Below are positions 1,218-40,523 of a stretch of 64,000 nucleotides of DNA, piece by piece. Made by a program: the position numbers and the translations under genes. The DNA is taken from the NCBI RefSeq assembly GCF_014280235.1, contig NZ_CP047940.1:2046001-2110000 (forward strand), written 5' to 3'. Numbering within the stretch: the stretch's first letter is position 1; each line of letters opens with the position of its first letter. The notes beneath the pieces were generated by a model that was not told where the DNA came from, did no database searches, and saw only the letters and a program-made list of their open reading frames with translations. The DNA is from Cyanobium sp. NS01 (GTDB lineage Bacteria > Cyanobacteriota > Cyanobacteriia > PCC-6307 > Cyanobiaceae).

Positions 1218-1997
1218 TCAGAGCTTGTCGATCGAGCGCTTGAGCTCTTCGAGTTCGGCATCCACCTGGGCCACCTTCACCGGCTCCAGCTGGGGCACCG
1301 GATCGCTGTCCTTGGGCAGGGCCACAGGTTCCGGGCCGGCGGCGCCGGAGAGCCGGTTCTTGAGAGCGGCGAGCTCATCGTCCACATCGCTGCTCTCAAG
1401 CGCAGCGAACTGGCTCTCGAGGTCGGCGCCGGCCAGCTCGGCCGCCGCCTGGCTGCGGGCCTCCAGGTTCTGCACCTTTTCCTCCATGCGCTCGAAGGCC
1501 GCCATCGAGGAGTTGGTGCCGAGGTTGCCCACGGCGCTCTGGAGCTGCTCCTGGGCCTGGGCAGCCTGGGCCCGGGCCTTGAGCATGTCCTTCTTGGTCT
1601 TGGCCTCGGCGATCTTGGCCTCCAGCGCCACCAGGCTCTTCTTGAGCGCGTCCACCTGGCCGGCCTGGCTGTTGAGCTGGGCGTTGAGCGCGGTGGCGGT
1701 GTCGTCGTAGGTCTTGCGGCGGGTGAGGGCCTCGCGGGCGAGGTCGTCCTCCCCCTTCTGGAGGGCCAGTTCGGCGCGCTGATACCAGGTCTTGGACTGG
1801 CTCTCCGCCTGTTCGGCCTGGTTGGCGATCCGCTTCTGACTGGCAATGGCCGTGGCCACCGCCTGGCGGAGCTTGATCAGGTCGGACTGCATGTCCGCGA
1901 CGGACTGGTCAAGGATCTTGGAGGGATCCTCCATGCTGCCGATCGCCGCATTGGCGTTGGCACGGAGCAGTCGGCTGAGGCGGTCAAAAAAGCCCAT
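1218..1997 (-). CDS. vipp1: Vipp1/IM30 (PspA family) membrane remodelling protein
   Basis: A 259-residue, almost wholly helical protein beginning MGFFDRLSRLLRANANAA, the classic amphipathic N-terminal helix of PspA/IM30. Long coiled-coil segments follow, with MEDPSKILDQ near residue 22. The C-terminus has an extra segment ending in a short helix (VDAELEELKRSIDKL) separated by a Pro-rich linker, the hallmark of Vipp1 as opposed to PspA. In cyanobacteria Vipp1 assembles ESCRT-III-like rings and maintains thylakoid membranes. It is a single-gene unit read leftwards, 156 bases from the thioredoxin start. Confidence 0.92.
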   Translation of the reverse strand: MGFFDRLSRLLRANANAAIGSMEDPSKILDQSVADMQSDLIKLRQAVATAIASQKRIANQAEQAESQSKTWYQRAELALQKGEDDLAREALTRRKTYDDTATALNAQLNSQAGQVDALKKSLVALEAKIAEAKTKKDMLKARAQAAQAQEQLQSAVGNLGTNSSMAAFERMEEKVQNLEARSQAAAELAGADLESQFAALESSDVDDELAALKNRLSGAAGPEPVALPKDSDPVPQLEPVKVAQVDAELEELKRSIDKL

Positions 1998-2186
1998 GGC
2001 GCAGCTGGGGGCAAGGCCAGAGGCTAACCATGAACGCCACCGGCGTCTGATCGGAGCGGCACCATCGCGCTCAGGACTCAGAATGGGGGCAGGATCTGAT
2101 TGGCGGCAATGGCAGGGTCGCAGCGACAGCGGAGCCGCGGCAATGCCCCGGCCACGGGTCAGCGCCGTATCGGCAGCATCACGGTG

Positions 2187-2684
2187 ATGGTGCCGGCCAG
2201 CCACCCGCCGGCCACGGCCCTGGCCCAGTGCCTCGACACCCTGCAGCAGCAGTGGCAGCGCCAGGGCAACCTGGGGGCGCTCTGGCAGCGCTGGCCGACG
2301 CTGGCGGGTCCCCAACTGGCCCCACACTGCCGCCCCCTGCGCCTGCAGGGCTCGGTGCTCACGGTGGGAGCCGCCCCCGGCCCCTGGCTGCAGGCCCTGC
2401 AGTACAACCGCCACCAGTTGCTGGGCAGCCTGCGGGCCGCCGGCTTTGCCGTGCGGGAAGTGCGCCTCACCCAGCACCATCCAGTCACCCAGCCCGGTCT
2501 GGCCGCTGAAGAGACAGCAGGCAGCTGGGCCCGGCACCCCAGCCGGGTGGATGTGCACGGCATGGCCACCTGCCCCGGCTGCCACTGCCCAGCCCCCGCC
2601 GGGGAGATGGCCCGCTGGGGCAGCTGCAGCTTCTGCCGCCGCCAGCTCCTCGCCGAGAACCCCGTCAGCGGCAGCCCTCAGTAG
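2187..2684 (+). CDS. DUF721 (DciA-like) protein with C-terminal zinc-ribbon-like motif
   Basis: About 165 residues. The central part (LDTLQQQWQRQGNLGALW, then WPTLAGPQLAPHCRPLRL) is the DUF721 domain found in DciA, the DnaB helicase operator of many bacteria that lack DnaC. The C-terminus adds two CxxC-type knuckles (CPGC and CSFC, 17 residues apart), which suggests a bound zinc ion. The start is uncertain: ATG 2187 is used, a GTG directly precedes it, and an ATG at 2100 in the same frame would add 29 basic residues. It converges with the glycosyltransferase on the other strand and overlaps it by 7 bases. Confidence 0.75.
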   Translation: MVPASHPPATALAQCLDTLQQQWQRQGNLGALWQRWPTLAGPQLAPHCRPLRLQGSVLTVGAAPGPWLQALQYNRHQLLGSLRAAGFAVREVRLTQHHPVTQPGLAAEETAGSWARHPSRVDVHGMATCPGCHCPAPAGEMARWGSCSFCRRQLLAENPVSGSPQ

Positions 2685-5653: not shown

Positions 5654-6588
5654 CAGAGCGGTCCTCCCCAGAGCTGCTGGCGGCGGTTGATCAGCAGCAC
5701 CGACACCATCGCCAGCCCGGCCCCCAGCCACTGCAGCGGCGAGAGCCGCTCCTGCAGCCACACCACCCCACAGAGCACGGCAAACACGGGAGTCAGGAAG
5801 GTGAGAGCGGTGAAGCCGGTGAGATCACCGCTGCTCGCGAACCAGAAGAACAAGCCGTAGGCCAGGGCGCTGCCCAGCAGGCTGGCGTAGGCCATCAGGC
5901 CCCACTGCAGCGACGACCAGGCCGGCAGCCAGGGGCCACCCGAGGCCAGCAGCGGCGCCCCGTGCAGCGCCAGCAGCGGCAGACCCCCCAGCAGCATGTG
6001 CCAGCCGGTGACCGCCAGCGGATCGCTGTGGCGCACGGCATAGCGGCAGAGCACCGTGCCCACCGCCATCGCCACCGCCGCGGCCAGCATCCAGAGCTCG
6101 CCATGGCTCCAGGCCCGCTGATCCGGCACCAGGGGTCCTTCCAGCCACCAGTGGCGCAGCACGGCGGCCGGCAGACCCAGGCAGAGGATGCCCAGCAGCC
6201 CGAGCACCAGCCCCAGCCAGCCCACCGGGTTGATCGCCTCGCCGAACAGGCTGCGGGCCATCAGGGCCACCAGCAGGGGCTGGGAGTCGATCAGCACCGA
6301 GCCCAGGCCAGCCCCGGTCTGCACCAGGCCCCGGGCCAGCAAGCCCTGGAACAGGGCCCCGTCCACCAGGGCGAAGGCGAGCAGCCAGGGCCAGTCAGCG
6401 CGGTGGATGGCAAGGGGACGGCCCAGCAGCAGCGCCGCCAGCAGCAGCAGCACCCCGGCCGGCAGCAGCCGCAGGGTGGCCACCAGCAGGGGCCCGCCGT
6501 CGCTGAGCAGCGGGCGCATGGCCGCCATCGCCGTGCCCCAGAGGGCGAACGGCAACAGCATCAGCAGCCAGCGCAGGGCCTGGGGCAT
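5653..6588 (-). CDS. EamA/DMT-family transporter
   Basis: A 311-residue protein with about ten membrane helices in two tandem EamA repeats (roughly residues 8-140 and 160-305). Each repeat ends with the typical pattern, for example TALTFLTPVFAVLCGVVWLQE before the final helices. These transporters export or exchange small metabolites; the substrate cannot be read from sequence. It is the first gene of the leftward trio with the pteridine glucosyltransferase and the ArnT-like enzyme, so export of a glycosylated metabolite is a possible but unproven link. It diverges from sppA with 63 bases between the two starts. Confidence 0.88.
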   Translation of the reverse strand: MPQALRWLLMLLPFALWGTAMAAMRPLLSDGGPLLVATLRLLPAGVLLLLAALLLGRPLAIHRADWPWLLAFALVDGALFQGLLARGLVQTGAGLGSVLIDSQPLLVALMARSLFGEAINPVGWLGLVLGLLGILCLGLPAAVLRHWWLEGPLVPDQRAWSHGELWMLAAAVAMAVGTVLCRYAVRHSDPLAVTGWHMLLGGLPLLALHGAPLLASGGPWLPAWSSLQWGLMAYASLLGSALAYGLFFWFASSGDLTGFTALTFLTPVFAVLCGVVWLQERLSPLQWLGAGLAMVSVLLINRRQQLWGGPL

Positions 6589-6651
6589 GGGGGCGGTTTT
6601 CAAGGCCGGTGGAGGCTTCTTTTTAAGATCCGGCAACCACACAAGAGTTCC

Positions 6652-7464
6652 ATGGTCTGGCCCTGGCGCCGCAAGACACGCCGCACCATGGCGCGGATCG
6701 CCATCGAAGGCCCCATCGGCGGGGGCACGCGCACCAGGGTGCTGAAGGCCCTGCGCCAGGTGGAGCAACGGGAGTGCCCGGCCCTGCTGCTGCGGATCGA
6801 CAGTCCCGGCGGCACGGTGGGCGACAGCCAGGAGATCCATGCCGCCCTGCTGCGGCTGCGTCAGAAGGGCTGCCGGGTGGTGGCCAGTTTCGGCAACATC
6901 TCCGCCTCCGGGGGGGTGTACATCGGCGTGGCGGCCGAGAAGATCGTGGCCAACCCCGGCAGCATCACCGGCTCGATCGGCGTGATCCTGCGGGGCAACA
7001 ACCTCTCGAAGCTGCTGAAGCGGCTCGGCGTGAGCTTCGAAACGGTGAAGAGCGGCCTCTACAAAGACATCCTCTCGCCGGATCGGGCCCTGAGCGAGGC
7101 GGAACGGGAGCTGCTGCAGAGCCTGATCGACTCCAGCTATCACCAGTTCGTGGGCGCCGTGGCCGAGGGCCGCGGGCTCGAGACCAAGGCGGTGCGGGCC
7201 TTCGCCGATGGGCGCGTGTTCAGTGGGGCCCAGGCGCTGGAGCTGGGGCTGGTGGACGCGCTGGGGGATGAGGAGGCCGCCCGCCGCCTGGTGGCCGACC
7301 TGGCCGGGCTGGATGCGGAGAAGACCCGGCCGATCACCTTCGGGGCGCCACCCAGGCGCTTCGCCGGCCTGATCCCCGGCCGCAGCCAGGTGGATCGGCT
7401 GCAGCAGCTGCTCAGCCTGGAGCTCGGCTGGTGCGGCCAGCCCCTGTGGCTGTTCCGCCCATGA
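6652..7464 (+). CDS. sppA: Signal peptide peptidase SppA (S49 family, short form)
   Basis: A 270-residue serine protease of the S49 family. Motifs are LLRIDSPGGTVGDS near residue 45, the nucleophile serine in NISASGGVYIG near residue 85, and the general-base lysine in KSGLYKDILSP near residue 140, which form the Ser-Lys dyad. The short single-domain form resembles Bacillus SppA, but no N-terminal membrane helix is visible with this start. It degrades cleaved signal peptides and membrane fragments. ATG 6652 is used because upstream in-frame sequence lies inside the divergent transporter. Its stop overlaps the aroH start (ATGA). Confidence 0.9.
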   Translation: MVWPWRRKTRRTMARIAIEGPIGGGTRTRVLKALRQVEQRECPALLLRIDSPGGTVGDSQEIHAALLRLRQKGCRVVASFGNISASGGVYIGVAAEKIVANPGSITGSIGVILRGNNLSKLLKRLGVSFETVKSGLYKDILSPDRALSEAERELLQSLIDSSYHQFVGAVAEGRGLETKAVRAFADGRVFSGAQALELGLVDALGDEEAARRLVADLAGLDAEKTRPITFGAPPRRFAGLIPGRSQVDRLQQLLSLELGWCGQPLWLFRP

Positions 7465-29498: not shown

Positions 29499-30104
29499 AT
29501 GGCCCCCCGCCTCCGCACCATTTCACCGGCAGGGCTTTGGGACCAGGGGCTGAGCCAGGTGCTGAGCCGTTGCCACCAGCTGCTGCAGCCATGGCGGCGG
29601 CGGCGGCCGTTGCTGCGCATGGCCCTGGGGCTCGGCCTGATGCTGGGCCTGCTGGCCGGCGGACTCACCGCCGGGGCAGGTCCAGCAGCAGCGGAATTCT
29701 CCGGAGTGGACTACACCCTCACCAACCAGAGCGGCAAGGACTTCAGCGGCCAGGACCTGGCCAACACCTCCTTTGCGGGGGCCTCCGGCCGCCAGGCCGA
29801 CTTCTCCGGCGCCAACCTGCATGGCGCCATCCTCACCCAGGCCGCCTTCCCCGAGGCCAGCTTCGCCGGGGCCGACCTCAGTGGCGTGCTGATGGACAAG
29901 GTGGACTTCAGCGGCGCCGATTTCAGTGGCGCCAACCTCAGCGACGTGATCGCCGCCGGCAGCAATTTCAGCGGCGCCACGGTGACCGATGCCGACTTCA
30001 GCGGCGCCCTGCTCGACCGGGTCGACCAGCGCCTGCTTTGCCGCGACGCCGAGGGCACCCACCCCGTGACCGGCGCCGACACCCGGCTCAGCCTGGGCTG
30101 CTAG
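29499..30104 (+). CDS. Pentapeptide-repeat protein, exported or membrane-anchored
   Basis: About 200 residues. A hydrophobic segment (MALGLGLMLGLLAGGLTAGAG, around residues 43-63) follows a basic N-terminus and may be a signal peptide ending at AAAEFSG. From about residue 75 to 170 there are roughly fifteen A(D/N)(L/F)xx pentapeptide repeats such as DFSGANLHGAIL and ADFSGANLSDVI, which form a right-handed quadrilateral beta helix. Cyanobacteria have many such lumenal or periplasmic proteins without known function. ATG 29499 is used; a GTG at 29475 is possible. It converges with the FAD oxidase and overlaps it by four bases. Confidence 0.85.
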   Translation: MAPRLRTISPAGLWDQGLSQVLSRCHQLLQPWRRRRPLLRMALGLGLMLGLLAGGLTAGAGPAAAEFSGVDYTLTNQSGKDFSGQDLANTSFAGASGRQADFSGANLHGAILTQAAFPEASFAGADLSGVLMDKVDFSGADFSGANLSDVIAAGSNFSGATVTDADFSGALLDRVDQRLLCRDAEGTHPVTGADTRLSLGC

Positions 30105-31579
30105 GGCTGGGGCTGCTGGCGCTGACGCTCCAGCCAGCCCCTGAGCTTGCCGGGGTTGAGCAGGCCGCCCGGGTCATAGGCCGCCTTGGCGGCCACCTGG
30201 TCGGCGTCGATGGCGCCCAGGCCGCCGTCCTCCACCGTGATCGCATGGGGGTTGAAGATCACCGCCCCCTGCTGGCGCGCCTGCTGCATCAGGGCCGCCA
30301 GGGGAGCTTCCCCCTGCCAGCGCAGCAGGGGCAGGGCCGCCAGGCGGGCGCATCCCTGCTGGCGCACCGCCTCCAGATGCCAGAGCAGGTCGTCGCCCCA
30401 GCGCTCGCTGAGGGCCGCCAGGCAGGGGGCTTCCGGCTGGGGCAGCAGCATCTGCAGGTAGGTCCAGCCCTGCTGCTGGGCACGCCAGTGCAGGGTGGTG
30501 TGGTTCCAGCTGAGCTCGCGCAGGGGCAGGCCCCGGCTCTCCCCCTGGGGGGCCTGCCAGCGCAGGCAGCCGCCCCTGGCCTGCAGCCAGCCCGGCAGCA
30601 GCTCCAGGCTGTCGGGCGCGGCCAGCAGCAGCAGCCGGTGTTCGCCGGGCGCCGCGGCCGGGCAGCCCGCCGGCCAGGGGGAGCGGGCCGCAATCGGTGC
30701 CTCCAGCAGGGTGATGGCCTGGAGCAGCAGGGCGGTGCCGGCCAGAGCGGACGCCGCCGCCACGGCCTGCTGCCAGGACTCGAAGCCCACCACCAGCTGC
30801 TGCCAGGCCACGGCCTCGGTGGTGGGCAGCCGCAGGGCCGTGAGGATGCCGTTGGTGCCATAGGCATGGTTGAGCGGCTGGCTGGCCGTCGCATCCAGCC
30901 GCAGCAGCCGCGGTTCAGGCTCCACCGTGACCACCTCCAGACCCAGCAGGTTGCCCGGATCCCGCAGGAAGCCCCAGCGCAGCGAGCCGATCCCGCCGGA
31001 TCCCCCCGCCACGAAGCCGCCGATGCTGGCGCTGCGGGCGGTGCTGGGCTGGAGCCGCAGGGCCCGGCCATGGGGAGCCAGCTGCTGCTCGAGGGTCGCC
31101 ATCACCAGGCCCGCCTCCACCTCGATCACGCCGCTGCGGGGATCCAGGCTGCGCAGGCGATTCAGCCCCATCAGCTCCAGCACCACGCCACCGGCCAGCG
31201 GCACGCACTGGCCGTAATTGCCGGTGCCGGCCCCCCGCACGGTGAGAGGCACCTCCAGCCGGGCGCAGCCGGCTGCCACGGCCCGCACCTGCTCCACCGT
31301 CGAGGCCCTTACAGCGAGCTGGGCCCGCTGAGCCTGGAACACCGGCACCAGCAGGGGGGAGTAGTCGAAAAAATCCCGCGACAGGCGCTGGAGCTCCGCC
31401 GGCTGCCCCTCCCCCACCAGCTCCAGGCCAGCACCAGCAGCGGCCTGGTCTGGGGCCTGCTCTGGGGCCAGCTCACCAGCGAGCTCCTCTGCCAACTGGG
31501 CGATCACGGCCGGATCCGGCCTCGGCGGCAGCCCCTCCAGGCAGAGAGCCGATCCAGCAGCGGGGGGAGGTGAGGCCAT
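30101..31579 (-). CDS. FAD-binding oxidoreductase (glycolate oxidase GlcD/FAD_binding_4 type)
   Basis: A 492-residue flavoprotein of the vanillyl-alcohol-oxidase superfamily. The FAD-binding part has VPLTVRGAGTGNYGQCVPLAGG near residue 112 and RLQPSTARSASIGGFVAGGSGGIGS near residue 180. The C-terminus ends DPGGLLNPGKLRG, typical of GlcD-like oxidases. The substrate is unknown; a 2-hydroxyacid is a reasonable guess. It sits 42 bases downstream of a cytosine-deaminase-like amidohydrolase on the same strand, and the two are likely expressed together. Confidence 0.87.
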   Translation of the reverse strand: MASPPPAAGSALCLEGLPPRPDPAVIAQLAEELAGELAPEQAPDQAAAGAGLELVGEGQPAELQRLSRDFFDYSPLLVPVFQAQRAQLAVRASTVEQVRAVAAGCARLEVPLTVRGAGTGNYGQCVPLAGGVVLELMGLNRLRSLDPRSGVIEVEAGLVMATLEQQLAPHGRALRLQPSTARSASIGGFVAGGSGGIGSLRWGFLRDPGNLLGLEVVTVEPEPRLLRLDATASQPLNHAYGTNGILTALRLPTTEAVAWQQLVVGFESWQQAVAAASALAGTALLLQAITLLEAPIAARSPWPAGCPAAAPGEHRLLLLAAPDSLELLPGWLQARGGCLRWQAPQGESRGLPLRELSWNHTTLHWRAQQQGWTYLQMLLPQPEAPCLAALSERWGDDLLWHLEAVRQQGCARLAALPLLRWQGEAPLAALMQQARQQGAVIFNPHAITVEDGGLGAIDADQVAAKAAYDPGGLLNPGKLRGWLERQRQQPQP

Positions 31580-31621: not shown

Positions 31622-32962
31622 TCATTGGCGCGGCGTTGGCCCCACTGCGCGGAGCAGAGGGGAGGGCTGCTCCATCGGTGGCGGCTCCAGCCACACCCCG
31701 GCCCGCAGCACCCGGCGCTGGGGGCTGCGGGCCAGCAGCTCGCCCCAGCTGCGCGCCGCCAGCACCACCAGGTCGGCCGGGGCGCCGGTCCGCAGCACCC
31801 CATCCCACTCCAGCCCCAGCAAAGCGGCGGCCGCGGTGCTGAAGGGCGCCAGGCCCTGGCGGCGGCTGGGCACCACGTGGCTGGTGATGGCCGCCAGGCG
31901 CAGCAGCTCGATCGGATCGAAGTCACCGCCTGGGAACCAGGGATCCTGCACGTTGTCGGCCCCGATCGCCACCCGCACGCCGGCCCGCTGCAGCGTGGCG
32001 ATCGGGGCCTGCACCCGTCGGTCCGGCGTGCGGCCAGGGCGCCGGCCCAGCAGCCAGAGGTTGGTGAGCGGCAGGGCCACCACGCCGATGCCGGCCTGGG
32101 CCAGCCGCTCCGCCAGCCGGTCGGCGCGGCGATCCGACAGCAGGGCCAGGCTGGCGGCATGGCTGCAGACGATCGGCACCTCGCAGCGCTGCTCCAGGGC
32201 CAGGCGCACCACCAGCTCCACCCCCCGGGCGGGCTGGGTGTCGGCCTCGTCCACGTGCAGATCCACCGCCGCCCCATGGCGCTCGGCCAGGGCCAGCAGG
32301 GCCGCCAGGGCCTCGCGGTCGGAGAGGCTGGCGCCGTAGGGCGGGCCGAGCACCCCGCCGAGCAGGCCACCCCGCTCGGCCACCCAGCGGGCCAGCTCCT
32401 CGCCCTGGGGGGTGAGCCAGTGCAGCAGGGGCGTCAGGGCCACCAGCTGCAGCTCCACCCGGCCGGCCCAGCGGCGACGGATCTCGAGCAGGGCCTCCCA
32501 GCTCGCCACGGCCCCTGGACCGACGCTGTCCACATGGCTGCGCAGGGCCCGAACCCCCTGGCGCCAGGCCAGCTGCAGGGCGCGCTCGGCCCGCTCCAGC
32601 ACCTGGGCCTCGCTGCGCTCGCCGTACTCCCTCTGGTTCTGGGCCAGGGCGCCGGCCATGGTGCCGTCCCAGTTGGGGAAGCGCGGGGCCGAAAAGGCCT
32701 TGTCGAGATGGGCGTGGGGCTCCACCAGGGGGGGCAGGGCCAGGGGCAGCGACTCGGCAGCGGCTTCCGGCCCCAGGGGGCGCAGACCGGTGATCCGTCC
32801 CTCCTGCCAGCTGAGCTCCACGGCCACCAGGCCCTCGGCATCCACCGGAGCGAGATCCGACTGCCGCGCCTCCAGCAGGGCCCTGGGCAGGCGCAACTCC
32901 AGACGGCCCGCCCTGCTCCCGAGGGCGCTGGCGGGGGTGGCGCCGGGTGGATGGGCGCTCAT
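31622..32962 (-). CDS. Cytosine-deaminase-like amidohydrolase
   Basis: A 446-residue metal-dependent hydrolase. Metal and catalytic motifs follow the CodA order: EPHAHLDKAF near residue 82, LRSHVDSVGPG, LHVDEADTQPARG near residue 238, VCSHAASLALL and the aspartate of IGADNVQDPWFPGGDFDPIE near residue 335. Cytosine, isoguanine or a related N-heterocycle would be a suitable substrate, but specificity is not readable. The start overlaps the DUF4359 gene by four bases (ATGA), and the FAD oxidase follows, suggesting a three-gene unit. Confidence 0.85.
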   Translation of the reverse strand: MSAHPPGATPASALGSRAGRLELRLPRALLEARQSDLAPVDAEGLVAVELSWQEGRITGLRPLGPEAAAESLPLALPPLVEPHAHLDKAFSAPRFPNWDGTMAGALAQNQREYGERSEAQVLERAERALQLAWRQGVRALRSHVDSVGPGAVASWEALLEIRRRWAGRVELQLVALTPLLHWLTPQGEELARWVAERGGLLGGVLGPPYGASLSDREALAALLALAERHGAAVDLHVDEADTQPARGVELVVRLALEQRCEVPIVCSHAASLALLSDRRADRLAERLAQAGIGVVALPLTNLWLLGRRPGRTPDRRVQAPIATLQRAGVRVAIGADNVQDPWFPGGDFDPIELLRLAAITSHVVPSRRQGLAPFSTAAAALLGLEWDGVLRTGAPADLVVLAARSWGELLARSPQRRVLRAGVWLEPPPMEQPSPLLRAVGPTPRQ

Positions 32963-33336
32963 GAACCAGGCTCCCGCGCCTGCACGATCACGAACCGTCC
33001 TGCCACACCCACAACGGTGGCCTCGAAGCGGGGCACCCGCCAGCGCAGCACCTGCTGACCACCCAGCTGGCTGTGATACACGCTCAGCACCCCGAAATTG
33101 GTGCGGCGGGTCTGTCGCTGCACCACCGCGCCCAAGGAGGTGCGCTGGGAGGCCACCAGGGCGGCGCAGTCGGCCACCGCCAGGCCCAGCACCGAGGGGA
33201 GCGTGCTGCTCTCACACACCCGGCTGGAGATCTCCTCCACCAACCGGCCCGCGGCGAAGTCGGCGAACTCGGCAGGGCCGGGGTTGGTCCAGGCCAGCAT
33301 CCCCCCGGCCCCAGCGAGCAGGACGGCGCCTCCCAC
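32959..33336 (-). CDS. DUF4359-like exported or membrane-anchored protein
   Basis: A 125-residue protein beginning at a GTG with a hydrophobic N-terminus (GGAVLLAGAGGMLAW) followed by TNPGPAEFADFAAGRLVEEI. Two cysteines (ISSRVCESS and AVADCAALV) may form a disulfide. The pattern matches DUF4359, a family common in cyanobacteria with no known function. It likely sits outside the cytoplasmic membrane. It overlaps the start of the amidohydrolase gene, so it heads the leftward three-gene unit. Confidence 0.72.
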   Translation of the reverse strand: MGGAVLLAGAGGMLAWTNPGPAEFADFAAGRLVEEISSRVCESSTLPSVLGLAVADCAALVASQRTSLGAVVQRQTRRTNFGVLSVYHSQLGGQQVLRWRVPRFEATVVGVAGRFVIVQAREPGS

Positions 33337-33494: not shown

Positions 33495-33568
33495 GGCGGG
33501 CGTCGCCAAGTGGTTAAGGCAGCGGCTTGTGGCGCCGCCATTCGGGGGTTCGAATCCCCTCGCTCGCC
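33495..33568 (+). tRNA. tRNA-His (anticodon GTG)
   Basis: The acceptor stem GCGGGCG/CGCTCGC (one G-U pair) has the extra G at position -1 (33495) opposite discriminator C (33568), the identity signature of histidine tRNA. The anticodon arm is GCGGC-TTGTGGC-GCCGC with anticodon GTG, and the T arm is GGGGG-TTCGAAT-CCCCT. CCA is not encoded. Confidence 0.95.
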
Positions 33569-33592
33569 CTTCCATCCCCGCTCAGGGGGCCG

Positions 33593-34708
33593 TCAGGAGG
33601 CCAGGAGATCAGCCCCGGCTGACCCATCCAGGGCCTCCAGAAGCATCCCGGCGCCCTGGCGTACGGGATCGGCGCAGGCAAGCCCCAGCTGCTCCGCCGT
33701 GCGGGCGGTGGCCGCAACGGCCTCCTGCTCCGCCAGCTGCATGGTGTTGAGGGCCACCGCCCGCACCCTGGGCCGCAGGCCGTCGGCACGGCCGAGGGCC
33801 GCCAGGCCCTCCACCACGGCGATCAGCTCCTGCAGCGGCGGGATCACCAGGTGGGGCAGACCCTTGATGTGGCGCTGCCCGGCCCGGTGCACCAGCAGCA
33901 GCTCGGTGGGCTGACTGCCCCGCAGCAGCGGCAGGGTGGCGGTGGAGCCCGGGTGGCAGAGAGAGCCCTGCCCCTCCACCAGCAGCAGACCGTCCCGGCC
34001 GAGGCCAGCGCCCGCCTCGAGCACGGCGGCCTCCACGGCACCGGCGGCATAGTCCACCCGCACAGCGTCCAGGGGCACACCGCCACCGGCGATCAGGATG
34101 CCGGCCTGGCCGGTGCCCACGAAGCGCGCCGCGCGGCCGCGCCGCCGGGCTTCCGCCAGCAGCTCCAGGCAGGCGCTCATCTTGCCCACGGCCATGTCGC
34201 TGCCCACGGCCAGCAGGCGCCGGCAGGGCAGATCGGCCGCCCGCGCCGACGCCACCGCCAGCCCGGAGGGCTCCTGACGCAGGTCCCAGATCCAGGCCCC
34301 AGGCGCCAGCAGGGCCGCCAAGCCGGGGTCGTCGCCGATGCGGCTGTGCAGGCCACTGGCCACCGACCAGCCCGCCCCCAGGGCCGTCGCCAGGTCGGCC
34401 CGCAGCGCCGGCGGCAGCAGCCCCCCGGAGGGCGCCAGTCCCACCACCGCCACCGCCGGCCCCAGGGGCAGGGCTGCCGCCACGCTCTCCAGCACCGGCA
34501 CGGCGCGATCGATGCCGGTCACCTCCTTCAGGCTGCGGCCGGCATGGGCCGGATCCACCACGGCCAGCAGCGGCCCGGGCCGGTAGCGCAGCATCGCCAG
34601 GCCGGTCTTGCCGGAGAGGTTGTCGAGGCCGTCGTGGAGCAGCAGCACCACCGGATCCTGGGCCTGCAGGCAGGTGCGGGCGCCCCCCCCTGGCGGCTCG
34701 GCTCTCAC
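33593..34708 (-). CDS. DUF1611 family protein (DgcN-like)
   Basis: A 371-residue protein of the DUF1611 family. The N-terminal domain has a Rossmann-like pattern (LLLHDGLDNLSGKTGLAML, VVGLAPSGGLLPP); the C-terminal domain has a P-loop-like VGSDMAVGKMSACLELL near residue 170 and RFVGTGQAGILIAGGGVPLDAV. In marine bacteria a DUF1611 enzyme (DgcN) N-acetylates D-glutamate and works with an enolase-family racemase (DgcA). Here the gene overlaps the enolase-family gene by four bases (GTGA), the same pairing. The D-glutamate role is inferred from that pairing and not shown. Confidence 0.78.
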   Translation of the reverse strand: MRAEPPGGGARTCLQAQDPVVLLLHDGLDNLSGKTGLAMLRYRPGPLLAVVDPAHAGRSLKEVTGIDRAVPVLESVAAALPLGPAVAVVGLAPSGGLLPPALRADLATALGAGWSVASGLHSRIGDDPGLAALLAPGAWIWDLRQEPSGLAVASARAADLPCRRLLAVGSDMAVGKMSACLELLAEARRRGRAARFVGTGQAGILIAGGGVPLDAVRVDYAAGAVEAAVLEAGAGLGRDGLLLVEGQGSLCHPGSTATLPLLRGSQPTELLLVHRAGQRHIKGLPHLVIPPLQELIAVVEGLAALGRADGLRPRVRAVALNTMQLAEQEAVAATARTAEQLGLACADPVRQGAGMLLEALDGSAGADLLAS

Positions 34709-35838
34709 GGCAGCCCCTCCGGCGCCAGCCCCGCAGCCGCCCTGGGCACCAGCCCGGGCCAGGCCTCCGCCACACCGATCCCCAGGCCCGGCTCACCGGG
34801 CAGCAGCAGCTGATCGCCCTGGCAGTCCAGGCCCGTGAAGGGGTCGTCCACCAGGTTGAGGTGGCTGTCGAGATCGGGCCAGCGCACCAGCGGCAGCAGC
34901 TGGGCCGCGGCGCCGTTCAGCAGGGCGCCGTCGGAGTAGCAGCCCAGCATCACCCCCAGCCCCAGACGCCGCGCCGTCTGGGCCATCAGCAGGGCCTCCG
35001 TGAGTCCGCCGCTCTTGAGCAGCTTGATGTTGACCCCATCGGTGTGGGGGGCCAGCCGCAGCAGATCCTCGAGGTTCCAGCAGCTCTCATCGGCCACCAG
35101 GGGCAGGGGGCAGTGGGGATGCAGGGCCGCGAAGCCGGCCCTGTCGCGCGTCGGGTCAAGCTGCGGCGCCAGCGGCTGCTCCAGGAGCACCACCCCATGG
35201 GCCTGGAGCTCAGGCAGCAGGCGCAGGGCGTCCTCCAGGCTCCAGCCCCCGTTGGCATCCACCTGCAGCTCACAGGCCGCGCCAGCCTGCTGCCGTTTGC
35301 GCTCCAGGGCCTCCGCCACCGCCTGCAGCAGGGCGCGGTCGTGATCGAGGCCCTCCGGGCTGCCCAGCTTGAGCTTGATGCGGCTGGCGGGCAGCTGCTG
35401 CCACCAGCGCTCGAGCCGCGCCAGCACCGCCGAGGGCGTGCCCAGCCCCAGGGTGACGCTGGTGGCGACACAGGCGCCTGGATCCAGGCCCCAGAGCCGC
35501 CAGAGGGGCTGCCCGAGGCGCTTGCCCCGCCAGTCGTGCAGGGCCAGATCGAGGCCACAGCGGGCGGGGGGCGAGAGCTGCGCCAGCAGCGGTTCCAGGC
35601 TCTGCGACCCCAGGGGTGAGGCCCCCTGCAGATGCGGGGCCAGGGCCTCCAGTTCGGCGGCGACGGCGGCGGTGTCGTAGTGGCGATGGCCGGTGTCGAA
35701 ACCGCCGGTTTCCCCCAGGCCCGTGAGGCCCTCGTGACTCACCTCCACCAGCAGATGCTCCACCGCGCTGGTGCTGCCACGGCTGATCGCCAGGGGCACG
35801 GCCTTGGTGAGGCGGAACGGGCGCAGGCGGCAGCGCAT
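34705..35838 (-). CDS. Enolase-superfamily racemase/epimerase (DgcA / dipeptide epimerase-like)
   Basis: A 377-residue muconate-lactonizing subgroup enzyme. Catalytic lysine pair in RIKLKLGSPEGLD near residue 165, metal ligands in QVDANGGW, VLLEQPL and VADESCWN, and the second lysine in GVNIKLLKSGG near residue 265, which together support 1,1-proton transfer (racemisation or epimerisation). The family is usually annotated L-Ala-D/L-Glu epimerase, but the DUF1611 neighbour points to N-acetyl-D-glutamate racemisation. ATG 35838 (MRCRLRPFRLTKAVPL) is preferred over a GTG at 35883. It is divergent from the glutaminase fusion gene. Confidence 0.82.
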   Translation of the reverse strand: MRCRLRPFRLTKAVPLAISRGSTSAVEHLLVEVSHEGLTGLGETGGFDTGHRHYDTAAVAAELEALAPHLQGASPLGSQSLEPLLAQLSPPARCGLDLALHDWRGKRLGQPLWRLWGLDPGACVATSVTLGLGTPSAVLARLERWWQQLPASRIKLKLGSPEGLDHDRALLQAVAEALERKRQQAGAACELQVDANGGWSLEDALRLLPELQAHGVVLLEQPLAPQLDPTRDRAGFAALHPHCPLPLVADESCWNLEDLLRLAPHTDGVNIKLLKSGGLTEALLMAQTARRLGLGVMLGCYSDGALLNGAAAQLLPLVRWPDLDSHLNLVDDPFTGLDCQGDQLLLPGEPGLGIGVAEAWPGLVPRAAAGLAPEGLP

Positions 35839-35996: not shown

Positions 35997-37838
35997 ATGG
36001 CCCCGTCCAGCGTCAACGCCACAGCGATCCAGGAGATTCTCAACGAGGCCCACGCCCGCTTCTCAGACCTGAAGGATGGCCAGCCGGCCCGCTACATCCC
36101 GGAGCTGGCCAAGGCCAACCCCGACCATTTCGGCATTGCCCTGGCCACCACCAGCGGCCATGTGTACAGCGTCGGAGACGCCGCTGAGTGCTTCACGATT
36201 CAGTCGATCTCCAAGCCATTCACCTACGCCCTGGCCCTGAAACTGCTGCCGGCGGGCCAGCTGCTGCAGACGGTGGGGGTGGAGCCCTCGGGGGATGCCT
36301 TCAACGCCATCAGCCTGGATGGGGCGTCAGGCCGGCCGCGCAACCCGATGATCAATGCCGGCGCAATCGCCACCACGGCCCAGGTGATGGCCCAGGCCCC
36401 GGACCATGCCGCGGGCCTGCTGCTCGACTTCTATTCCAGCCTGGCCGGCCGGCCCCTGACGGTGGATGAGGCGGTGTTCCGCTCCGAGCGGGACAGCGGC
36501 CACCGCAACCGCGCCATCGGCCACCTGCTGCGCCAGTTCGGGATCATCGGCAGCGACCCTGAGCCCAGCCTGCAGCTGTACTTCCGGCAGTGCGCCGTGT
36601 CGGTGAGCTGCCTCGATCTGGCCAGCATGGCCGCCACCCTCGCCTGCCAGGGCCGCCATCCCCGCACCGGCGTCAGCGTGATCGAGCCGCAGACCACCAC
36701 CAACGTGCTGGCCGTGATGGGCAGCTGCGGCATGTACAACTACGCCGGCCAGTGGCTGCACGATGTGGGCATGCCGGCCAAGAGCGGCGTGGCCGGCGGC
36801 CTGCTGGCCGTGGTGCCCGGCCGTCTTGGGCTGGCGGTGTACTCCCCGCCCCTGGACAGTCTGGGCAACTCCGTTCGAGGCGTTGCGGTGTGTGAGTGGT
36901 TGTCTCGGCAGCTGGATCTGCACCTGTTCAACCAGCCAGCCCCGGCGGGGCGCTGCCTGCGCTCCAGCAGCGACGGCTGCCGGCGCCATTCGCGCCGCTG
37001 GCGCCAGCAGGGGGAGCGCGACTGGCTCGATCGCCAGGGCGCCCGGCTGAAGCTGCTGGAGGTGCAGGGGGTGCTCGATTTCGCCGCCGGCGAGGAGCTC
37101 CTGGCGGAGATCGACCGCCAGGCCAAGGCGGGGTCCGTGCTGGTGCTCGACCTGACCAGGGTCAGCAGCCTGCCCGCCGTGGGCGCCAGGTTGATGCGGC
37201 AGCAGCTCGGCAGCCTCGGCCCCCGGCACAGCACCGTGTTGCTCTGCATGGGCAGGCACGGGGAGGCGCTGTGGCCAGAAGGCCTGGGCGTGCCGACGCC
37301 AATCCCCTGGCTGCAGACCTTCAGCAGCCTGGATGAGGCCTTGGAGCACGCCGAGGAGCTGCTGCTGGCGGAGCGGCCCGCTCCGGCCGCTCCACCCCTG
37401 GAGCAGCGGCCGGGGCTGCTGGAGCGCTTGCCACAAGCGAGTCGCAAGCTGCTCGAGCCCCTGCTGCAGCGGCGGAGGTTCCAGGCCGGAGAGCTGGCCT
37501 GCCGTGGCGGGGGCCCCGGCAGCGATCTGTTTCTGATCGAATCGGGCCGCTTCAGCGTGCTGAACGCCGTGGGCTCCGACGGGCGCCAGGATCGTCTCGC
37601 CAGCTTCGGCGCCGGCTGCTGGTTCGGGGAAGTGGCCTTCCTGGGCAGCGGCGAGGGCAGTGCCGATGTGCTGGCCGAGGCCCCCGGAAGCTGCCTGGTG
37701 CTGGGCCGCGCGGGCCTCGAGCAGCTGGAGCTGCAGCATCCCGCCGTGCTGATCCAGCTGATGCGGTTGCTCCACGGCGAGCTGGCCTGCAAGCTCGAGC
37801 GCACCAACCAGGAGCTGGTGCTGCTGGAGGAGGGCTGA
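35997..37838 (+). CDS. glsA: Glutaminase fused to STAS and cyclic-nucleotide-binding-like domains
   Basis: A 613-residue three-domain protein. Residues 10-310 are a beta-lactamase-fold glutaminase (Gln to Glu and ammonia) with SxxK at S70-K73, N120 in [33 protein letters not shown] and AKSGVAGG. Residues 345-445 look like a STAS domain ([38 protein letters not shown]). Residues 475-605 resemble a cNMP-binding barrel ([34 protein letters not shown]), but the arginine that contacts the cyclic phosphate appears replaced by glycine. The extra domains suggest regulated glutaminase activity. Confidence 0.88.
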
Positions 37839-39353: not shown

Positions 39354-40523
39354 ATGACCCCTGCCCCAAGCCAAGGCCGGATCCATGTGGGCCTGATCTT
39401 CGGCGGGGCTTCCGGCGAGCACGCCATCTCCATCCGCTCGGCCGCCACGGTGGCCGCCGCCCTGCGGGCTGAAGCCAATGCCGCCCGCTACGCCCTGAGC
39501 TGTTTCTACATCGACCAGCGCGGCCGCTGGTGGGGTCCGGAACTGGCCGACCGGGTGCTGGCCCAGGGCACTCCGGCGAACGCGACCCAGCTCGCTCCCG
39601 GCACGGAACGCTCCGGCTTCCAGGGCTTTCCCGATGCAGCCCTGGCGGTGCAGGTGTGGTTCCCGGTGCTGCACGGCCCCAACGGCGAGGACGGCACGAT
39701 CCAGGGCTTGTTCGCCCTCATGCAGGTGCCGTTCGTGGGCTCCGGGGTGCTCGGTTCGGCCGTGGGCATGGACAAGCTGGCCATGAAGGCCGCCTTTGCC
39801 GCCTCAGGACTTCCTCAGGTGCCCTATGCCGCCGTGAGCGCCGCCGAAGTCCAGAGCGATGCCGAGGCCGTGCTGGATCGGCTGGAGGCCCAGCTCAGTT
39901 ACCCCTGCTTCGTGAAGCCCGCCAACCTGGGCTCCTCCGTGGGCATCAGCAAGGCCAGGGATCGGCCCTCGCTGCTTGAGGGCCTGCGCGATGCCGCCGA
40001 CCTCGATCCGCGGGTGGTGGTGGAGCAGGGCGTCACCGCCCGGGAGCTGGAGTGCGCCGTGCGCGGCGGCGGCCCCAGGCCCTTCAGTGCCTCGGTGCTG
40101 GGGGAAATCCGCTTCGACGCCGACTGGTACGACTACGAGACCAAGTACAGCGATGGCAGGAGCCGCACCCTGATCCCCGCACCGGTGCCGGAGGCGGTGG
40201 CGGAGCGGGCCCGCAGCATGGCCGTGCAGGCCTGCGAGGCCCTGAACGCCTCGGGGCTGGCCCGGGTCGATTTCTTCTACGCCGAGGGCGAGGTGGGGAG
40301 CAAGGCTGAGGGCGAGGCGGGGAGCGAGACGGCGGGTGGCGGCCTCTGGCTCAATGAAATCAACACCCTGCCTGGCTTCACCAGCCTCAGCATGTACCCG
40401 ATGCTGTGGCAGGCCACGGGCGTCGACCTGGACACCCTGGTGGATGAACTGATCCAGGCCGCCCTGGAGTGGCCTTCCCCTGCCGACCCGGCCCCAGGAC
40501 GCTTCAAAGGAGTCTCCCCATGA
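39354..40523 (+). CDS. ddl: D-alanine--D-alanine ligase
   Basis: A 389-residue ATP-grasp ligase that makes the D-Ala-D-Ala end of peptidoglycan precursors. Motifs are [16 protein letters not shown] near residue 15, [14 protein letters not shown] near residue 105, [14 protein letters not shown] and the closing [17 protein letters not shown]. Before the last motif there is an acidic Gly/Ser/Glu insertion ([16 protein letters not shown], near residue 310) containing an imperfect repeat, absent from typical Ddl. Its TGA overlaps the next ATG, and the gene heads the ddl-ftsQ-ftsZ division cluster. Confidence 0.95.

Follow-up and report, generated by a model that had tools for sequence, protein, structure and literature searches.

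The gene pair and its protein families

The window analysed here, a stretch of 64,000 nucleotides from Cyanobium sp. NS01 (NZ_CP047940.1, positions 2,046,001 to 2,110,000), belongs to a genome of 2.75 Mb in one contig, and the closest named relatives of the strain in our DUF1611 tree are Synechococcus. On the minus strand it carries a DgcA-like enolase-superfamily gene of the MR/MLE type (34705..35838; ATG start, 377 amino acids) and, second in the pair, a DgcN-like DUF1611 gene (33593..34708; GTG start, 371 amino acids). We propose that they encode an N-acyl-D-glutamate racemase and a D-glutamate N-acyltransferase, respectively. An earlier note on this DNA had likened them to the DgcN-DgcA pathway, which is known from marine Proteobacteria and halophilic archaea and was reportedly the subject of an ISME J paper in 2023. 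As that note had stated, the two genes overlap by four bases, GTGA at 34705..34708 on the minus strand, which hold the start of the DUF1611 gene and the stop of the enolase gene. The pair is real, conserved and functionally coupled, and it forms a distinct subfamily of an already-known module type.

Pfam gathering scores and NCBIfam curated equivalog cut-offs served as family thresholds. The DUF1611 protein has a Rossmann-like N domain (DUF1611_N) and a P-loop domain (DUF1611), both above the gathering scores, and its only NCBIfam match is DgcN (NF041892). The enolase has the domains MR_MLE_N and MR_MLE_C, also above the gathering scores, and its best NCBIfam match is DgcA (NF042940). Since the best curated match of each protein is the corresponding half of the DgcN-DgcA system, as the earlier note had read the families, both halves point to this pathway. 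The adjoining DgcA-type enolase expected of a DgcN is present here and conserved in relatives.

The AlphaFold model of the DUF1611 protein (predicted local distance difference test, pLDDT, 92.3) matched the solved N-acetyltransferase DgcN (7xrj) in Foldseek, with template modelling (TM) scores of 0.78/0.87 over 349 columns and 34% identity. Over nearly its whole length it also matched Ava_3511 of Anabaena variabilis (2obn; 52% identity, TM 0.88/0.94, chain D), a DUF1611 protein whose entry title assigns no function. Thermotoga 2g0t was likewise among the fold matches from its own family. The next matches were P-loop kinases, HypB, dethiobiotin synthetase, CTP synthetase and Mur ligases. No GNAT was found among the 50 fold matches listed, and a membership of DgcN in GNAT, which we had presumed, was dropped. 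The motif G-x-D-x-x-x-G-K is invariant in an alignment of 11 DUF1611 rows. The cosubstrate in the wider family may be an acyl-CoA or a nucleotide.

Among the residues present in the enolase (AlphaFold model, pLDDT 91.4) are the lysines K155 and K157 of the KxK motif, two further lysines, K272 and K275, and, as metal ligands, D194, E220 and D250. The claim that it keeps both catalytic lysines (K157 and K272) and three metal ligands was thus confirmed. Residues were compared among 49 cyanobacterial enolases, window included, and 40 other DUF1611-paired enolases, the latter holding five loci of f37, a deep-branching lineage of the same phylum. At least 88 of these 89 non-reference sequences retain the catalytic lysines and the metal ligands. 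K155, K157, D194, E220 and D324 are present in all of both sets; for D250, K272, K275 and D322 the figures are no fewer than 48 of the 49 cyanobacterial enolases and all 40 of the others. An arginine, R20, occurs in 46/49 and 38/40, respectively. R20 and the DxD motif (D322, D324) are as in YcjG, the L-Ala-D/L-Glu epimerase of E. coli, which shares the ISRG/IARG arginine; both presumably belong to the substrate pocket, and we take the DxD to be tied to the ammonium group of the dipeptide. They do not discriminate, however, because the five DgcA-group references have the DxD in 5/5 and the arginine in 4/5. The DxD was therefore discarded as a mark separating dipeptide epimerases from DgcA. For Bacillus subtilis YkfB, K162 and K268 are named as the two bases in PMC5808125. 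They presumably match K157 and K272 of the window's enolase.

Joint inheritance of the two genes

In 244 Cyanobacteriota genomes we found 78 substantial DUF1611 matches, distributed over 72 genomes, with one match (G174) broken by a stop. Eight weak or fragmentary DUF1611 rows (six genomes without another match), enolase rows below 91 bits and ornithine-racemase-like (Orr-like) rows of 54.5 bits or less were left out before counting. An enolase match lies upstream of 58 of them, on the same strand and no more than 1 kb away; it is downstream within 1 kb for 5 and upstream within 6 kb for 3. Seven of the remaining matches are beside an Orr-like gene, and five have no enolase within 6 kb while carrying one elsewhere in the genome. 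All 71 genomes with a DUF1611 gene of the non-Orr kind also have the enolase, at a distance of up to 1 kb in 63, up to 6 kb in 3 and elsewhere in 5, and 71 of the 73 enolases with at least 146 bits are in genomes carrying DUF1611. The trait is widespread in the phylum and not peculiar to this strain; the window's own family has the pair in 9 of 24 genomes.

We also inspected loci in named genomes, taking the best 80 of 585 retrieved with an alignment in which DgcN and Orr-type sequences were represented. The fetched stretch contains an enolase at 61 of the 80, upstream at 53 and downstream at 8, in script-made frames of which some start too early. Among the 19 loci with no enolase in the stretch, 17 genomes were searched; 14 have an enolase of at least 189 bits elsewhere and 3 have partial or weak matches only, while in the two loci left out of this search (L113 and L140) the contig breaks off next to the gene. 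The linkage is seen across many phyla and in both gene orders. Pairwise distances of the two families were correlated with r = 0.93 across 89 pairs, against 0.19 for the best among 1000 permutations, and equally with r = 0.93 in a set of 44 pairs leaving out photosynthetic cyanobacteria (best permutation, 0.26). Because shared host descent adds to r, this correlation speaks for joint inheritance and not for function.

Paired proteins from a haloarchaeon, a metagenome-assembled genome (MAG) of Rhodobacteraceae, Bacteroidota, another cyanobacterium and f37 score 222-251 bits with DgcN and 187-252 bits with DgcA, the haloarchaeal pair (250.8 and 252.3 bits) being about as distant from the models as that of the window. 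A Bradyrhizobium DUF1611 gene, next to a gene annotated as dipeptide epimerase, scores 470.1 bits with DgcN, and the DgcA cut-off of 400 bits is reached in none of the 244 cyanobacterial genomes. The DgcN and DgcA cut-offs are strict.

The enolase comes first in most cyanobacteria, whereas DgcN leads in the references from Pseudoalteromonas, Ruegeria, Sphingobium and V. pelagius. In f37 (L051, L052, L068, L069 and L070) the order of the pair is reversed, and in L051 the pair stands behind quinolinate-synthesis genes and a GAF-GGDEF-HD protein. In several filamentous cyanobacteria, enolase and DUF1611 are separated by genes of Uma2-type nucleases (L096, 3116..3862, and L046, 6452..7264, both scanned; L105 and L107 by similarity), and in L044 a TIR-domain gene (5978..7168) has this position.

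Genomic neighbourhood and a second DUF1611 module

The DUF1611 gene ends right next to a tRNA-His (gtg) gene (33496..33569). Downstream there are minus-strand genes for a DUF4359 protein (32959..33336), a cytosine-deaminase-like amidohydrolase (31622..32962) and a FAD_binding_4 protein (30101..31579), the last two represented by the same Pfam families in the same place in a relative. Divergent from the enolase is a gene on the plus strand (35997..37838) for a glutaminase with a C-terminal cyclic nucleotide monophosphate-binding domain and a STAS-like stretch (STAS below the cut-off). Among the genes of the stretches fetched from the 8 other family genomes there is none like the glutaminase, which was dropped as a clue to the pathway. 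Beyond the divergent block, which putatively includes MiaB, FtsQ and FtsZ, is the D-Ala-D-Ala ligase gene ddl (39354..40523, plus strand). In picocyanobacteria the pair is situated between the FAD_binding_4, amidohydrolase and DUF4359 genes and this divergent ligase block, a cell-wall context that is shared with the class-level genome G036. Neither a regulatory RNA nor a sigma-70-type promoter was found between the divergent genes.

No third gene family accompanies the pair at over 10 of the 80 named loci, and families present in at least 6 loci are confined to one phylum. This fits a self-contained conversion in two steps, and neighbouring genes were abandoned as a guide to the pathway. Neighbours restricted to single lineages (quinolinate-synthesis genes, GH32, a sugar transporter, Uma2 and TIR) look unrelated. 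A gene of the histone deacetylase family overlaps the enolase in one pair from a Rhodobacteraceae MAG (L125, 1859..3013) and could remove an N-acyl group, as a single case. Another suggestive single case is a GH3 gene near DUF1611 in a Planctomycetota MAG (L154).

The same genome has a second DUF1611 gene at about 336.6-338.9 kb, which overlaps by four bases with a gene for an Orr-like pyridoxal phosphate (PLP) racemase (L002, 320..1447 and 1444..2613). The racemase scores 287.6 bits, below the cut-off of 480. All seven strong Orr matches (at least 287 bits) in the 244 cyanobacterial genomes, this one included, adjoin DUF1611, and a Phaeobacter plasmid (L163) has the same overlapping pair. Since PLP racemases require the amino group to be free, the Orr-paired DUF1611 protein would act on the product or substrate of the racemase and not before it. 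In our trees, which are quick trees with SH-aLRT support only and with several long reference branches, the Orr-paired DUF1611 clade is separate from the cyanobacterial group of the window (support 100). The DgcN references and 108 other non-Orr DUF1611 rows (most, not all, enolase-linked) have G95, G96, D219, A224, S249, T322 and R350 in common. At each of these positions another residue is the commonest among the 8 Orr-paired rows; the clearest case is D219, with Gln in 8/8. H121 is conserved, yet it is also kept in 5 of the 8 Orr-paired rows.

A candidate route of D-glutamate recovery

The reading we favour, with moderate confidence, is that the pair N-acylates D-glutamate (D-Glu) and then racemises it. 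The DUF1611 protein would acylate the amino group of D-Glu, most likely with an acetyl donated by acetyl-CoA. With Mg2+ and the opposed lysines K157 and K272, its enolase-fold partner would then remove and replace the alpha proton, giving N-acyl-L-Glu. If the cap is acetyl, the product would be N-acetyl-L-glutamate, an intermediate of the arginine pathway, which could enter the arginine route or be deacylated to L-Glu. The genome encodes ArgJ (454.8 bits) and two M20 hydrolases, one passing a broad amidohydrolase model and the other a broad hydantoinase/carbamoylase model; in the partial frames scanned neither reaches the ArgE cut-off. The D-Glu may come from the cell's own peptidoglycan or from outside, and we found no support for seawater, which the earlier note had suggested as a source. 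The likeness to DgcN-DgcA consists of both families as adjoining genes, the best curated matches, the P-loop fold of DUF1611 and the same catalytic residues in the enolase. N-succinylamino acid racemase pathways of the enolase superfamily work alike, since there a D-amino acid is capped, racemised and uncapped as the L-form, although they use another acyltransferase, a GNAT, and a succinyl cap; this is not a relation of membership.

Several observations weigh against this assignment. The scores with DgcN (211.8 bits) and DgcA (169.5 bits) are below the cut-offs of 480 and 400. The cyanobacterial DUF1611 group with the window is apart from the DgcN references, a set of four genes annotated dgcN and one from Bradyrhizobium, with support 100 and a stem of 1.49, and the cyanobacterial enolases fall outside the clade of the DgcA-group references and YcjG. 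No DgcR-like LysR regulator, such as that beside the genes in L160, was found among the flanking window genes scanned; the Ruegeria reference likewise has no annotated LysR gene beside its DgcN and DgcA genes. An ATP-using reaction of DUF1611 is conceivable because of its P-loop fold with kinase- and ligase-like fold neighbours. The best PDB folds for the enolase model are the dipeptide epimerases 3iji, 3ijq, 3jva and 1jpm, with 1jpd and 4gfi also listed. Near the expected site of the N-cap, the cyanobacterial enolases have DLDSH and GCY where DgcA has DLDGP and GCM, and therefore the cap or the amino acid may differ from classic DgcA. S325 (48/49), H326 (49/49) and Y301 (48/49) are replaced by G, P and M in all five DgcA-group references and YcjG, and are the best hint of such a difference in cap or substrate; N328, in 48 or 49 of the 49, is L or W in all 6 references. 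In one genome of the 71 (G123), a NlpC/P60 gene (L075, 1733..2395) is 2.7 kb upstream of the pair, which suits a murein-peptide role. The resemblance drawn in the earlier note thus stands in the best families, the fold match to 7xrj and joint inheritance, and fails in the cut-offs, the reference clades and the residues after the DxD, which are unlike those of every DgcA reference. The structural comparison proposed there supports the DgcN half, while the enolase model is closest to dipeptide epimerases.

It is possible, though we consider it unlikely, that the enolase acts as an epimerase of the murein dipeptide L-Ala-D/L-Glu, with the DUF1611 protein as a murein-recycling partner modifying for instance the dipeptide or freed glutamate. 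Dipeptide epimerases are the top PDB matches of the enolase in sequence as well as fold, and it shares the two-lysine mechanism, metal ligands and DxD with E. coli YcjG, B. subtilis YkfB and Bacteroides 3iji, with R20, both catalytic lysines and the DxD identical to YcjG. YcjG itself (L156, 4931..5896) nests among the proteobacterial DgcA-group references, forming with them a group of 6 that is supported at 99 (85-92 on its inner branches), and for this reason the enolase alone cannot separate N-acetyl-D-Glu from L-Ala-D-Glu. This position of YcjG suggests that dipeptide-epimerase and DgcA activities may overlap or have switched in the clade. According to PMC5808125, YcjG has a broad range among dipeptides that begin with L-Ala and a narrow one among those that end with L-Glu. 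Such a specificity may allow a crossover to N-acyl-Glu. The genome also carries a NlpC/P60 peptidase like 2evr/2hbw. Cyanobacterial enzymes of this type presumably cut murein peptides and release L-Ala-D-Glu, and the dipeptide would then be available. Besides the NlpC/P60 gene of G123, an S9-family peptidase gene immediately precedes the enolase in L120 (its family F34 occurs in 3 of the 80 loci, L081, L120 and L129, adjoins the enolase only in L120 and was scanned there only), and the annotated Pseudoalteromonas dgcR-dgcN-dgcA genes are near a M14 carboxypeptidase gene.

However, the DgcA score exceeds those of the L-Ala-D/L-Glu epimerase models NF011708 and NF041118 (122.9 and 58.8 bits, cut-offs 343 and 500), all being below their cut-offs, and the residues after the DxD are other than in these epimerases. 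The partner here is DUF1611 and not a murein peptidase, and the enolase tracks DUF1611 and not the peptidase, NlpC/P60 being present in 24/24 family members and the pair in 9/24; conversely, a NlpC/P60 match is missing in 11 of the 71 pair genomes. Forty neighbourhood proteins were scanned, two of them pair members; the 38 neighbours include one S9 peptidase, no NlpC/P60 and no murein amidase. No murein peptidase, in the manner of mpaA beside ycjG, is among the window flanks scanned, and among relatives there is only that of G123. It is doubtful, but conceivable, that the same two-step logic operates with another cap (succinyl, another acyl or one made with ATP) or another D-amino acid, in a subfamily with its own specificity. 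The clade-specific S325, H326, N328 and Y301, the presence of the N-succinyl Arg/Lys racemase 2p88 among the fold matches of the enolase and the P-loop fold of DUF1611 are in favour of this, whereas the conservation of R20 would fit glutamate and the partner protein also points to DgcN. That the two genes came to adjoin by accident and serve unrelated pathways is highly improbable: they are unlinked within 6 kb in 5 of the 71 cyanobacterial genomes and 19 of the 80 named loci have no enolase in the fetched stretch, but joint presence in 71/71, linkage over many phyla in both orders and congruent distances led us to reject it. Of the alternative given in the earlier note, a standard epimerase with an unrelated DUF1611 protein, the unrelated partner is accordingly very unlikely, while the nesting of YcjG keeps the epimerase role in play.

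Published work touches these families from several sides. Genes for dgcN were found in 32 class-level clades of Mariana Trench genomes, in an article whose main text does not contain the word cyanobacteria (PMC12363236), and DgcN-DgcA was tied to D-Glu use in Shewanella in PMC10845958. L-Ala-D/L-Glu epimerase (AEE) genes have been noted in cyanobacteria and land plants, with DUF1611 unmentioned in the available part of the text (PMC3605383). In Nostoc, peptidoglycan-recycling proteins, among them an L-alanyl-D-glutamate peptidase, rise on plant contact, according to PMC9620832. A role of the pair in cyanobacteria did not appear in the titles or abstract starts among the matches listed, a search whose coverage leaves out most subscription journals.

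A wider proposal, tentative but not implausible, is that DUF1611 is a general partner family of amino acid racemases, with two modules in one genome built on racemases of unrelated fold. The enolase-type glutamate module, by making N-acetyl-L-glutamate, would then tie D-Glu of the wall to the arginine/cyanophycin branch, which is controlled by PII and N-acetylglutamate kinase, as a phylum-wide unrecognised route in oxygenic phototrophs. Against such a general role, the PLSDB gene tables, which are incomplete, show no annotated racemase within about 4 kb of the plasmid DUF1611 genes of the haloarchaeon Natrononativus (L162), Vibrio coralliilyticus (L164) and Streptomyces (L165); that of V. coralliilyticus falls in the Orr-type clade and stands before genes annotated hflK/hflC.

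If the favoured reading, N-acylation of D-Glu followed by racemisation, is correct, many cyanobacteria would recover D-Glu by means of an acyl cap, with the arginine precursor N-acetylglutamate as the product. A function would be given to an uncharacterised family whose cyanobacterial structure, 2obn, came out in 2007, and the border between dipeptide epimerases and N-acyl-Glu racemases would become testable. Cell-wall turnover would be linked to nitrogen storage, and the DgcN-DgcA type of pathway would extend to oxygenic phototrophs.

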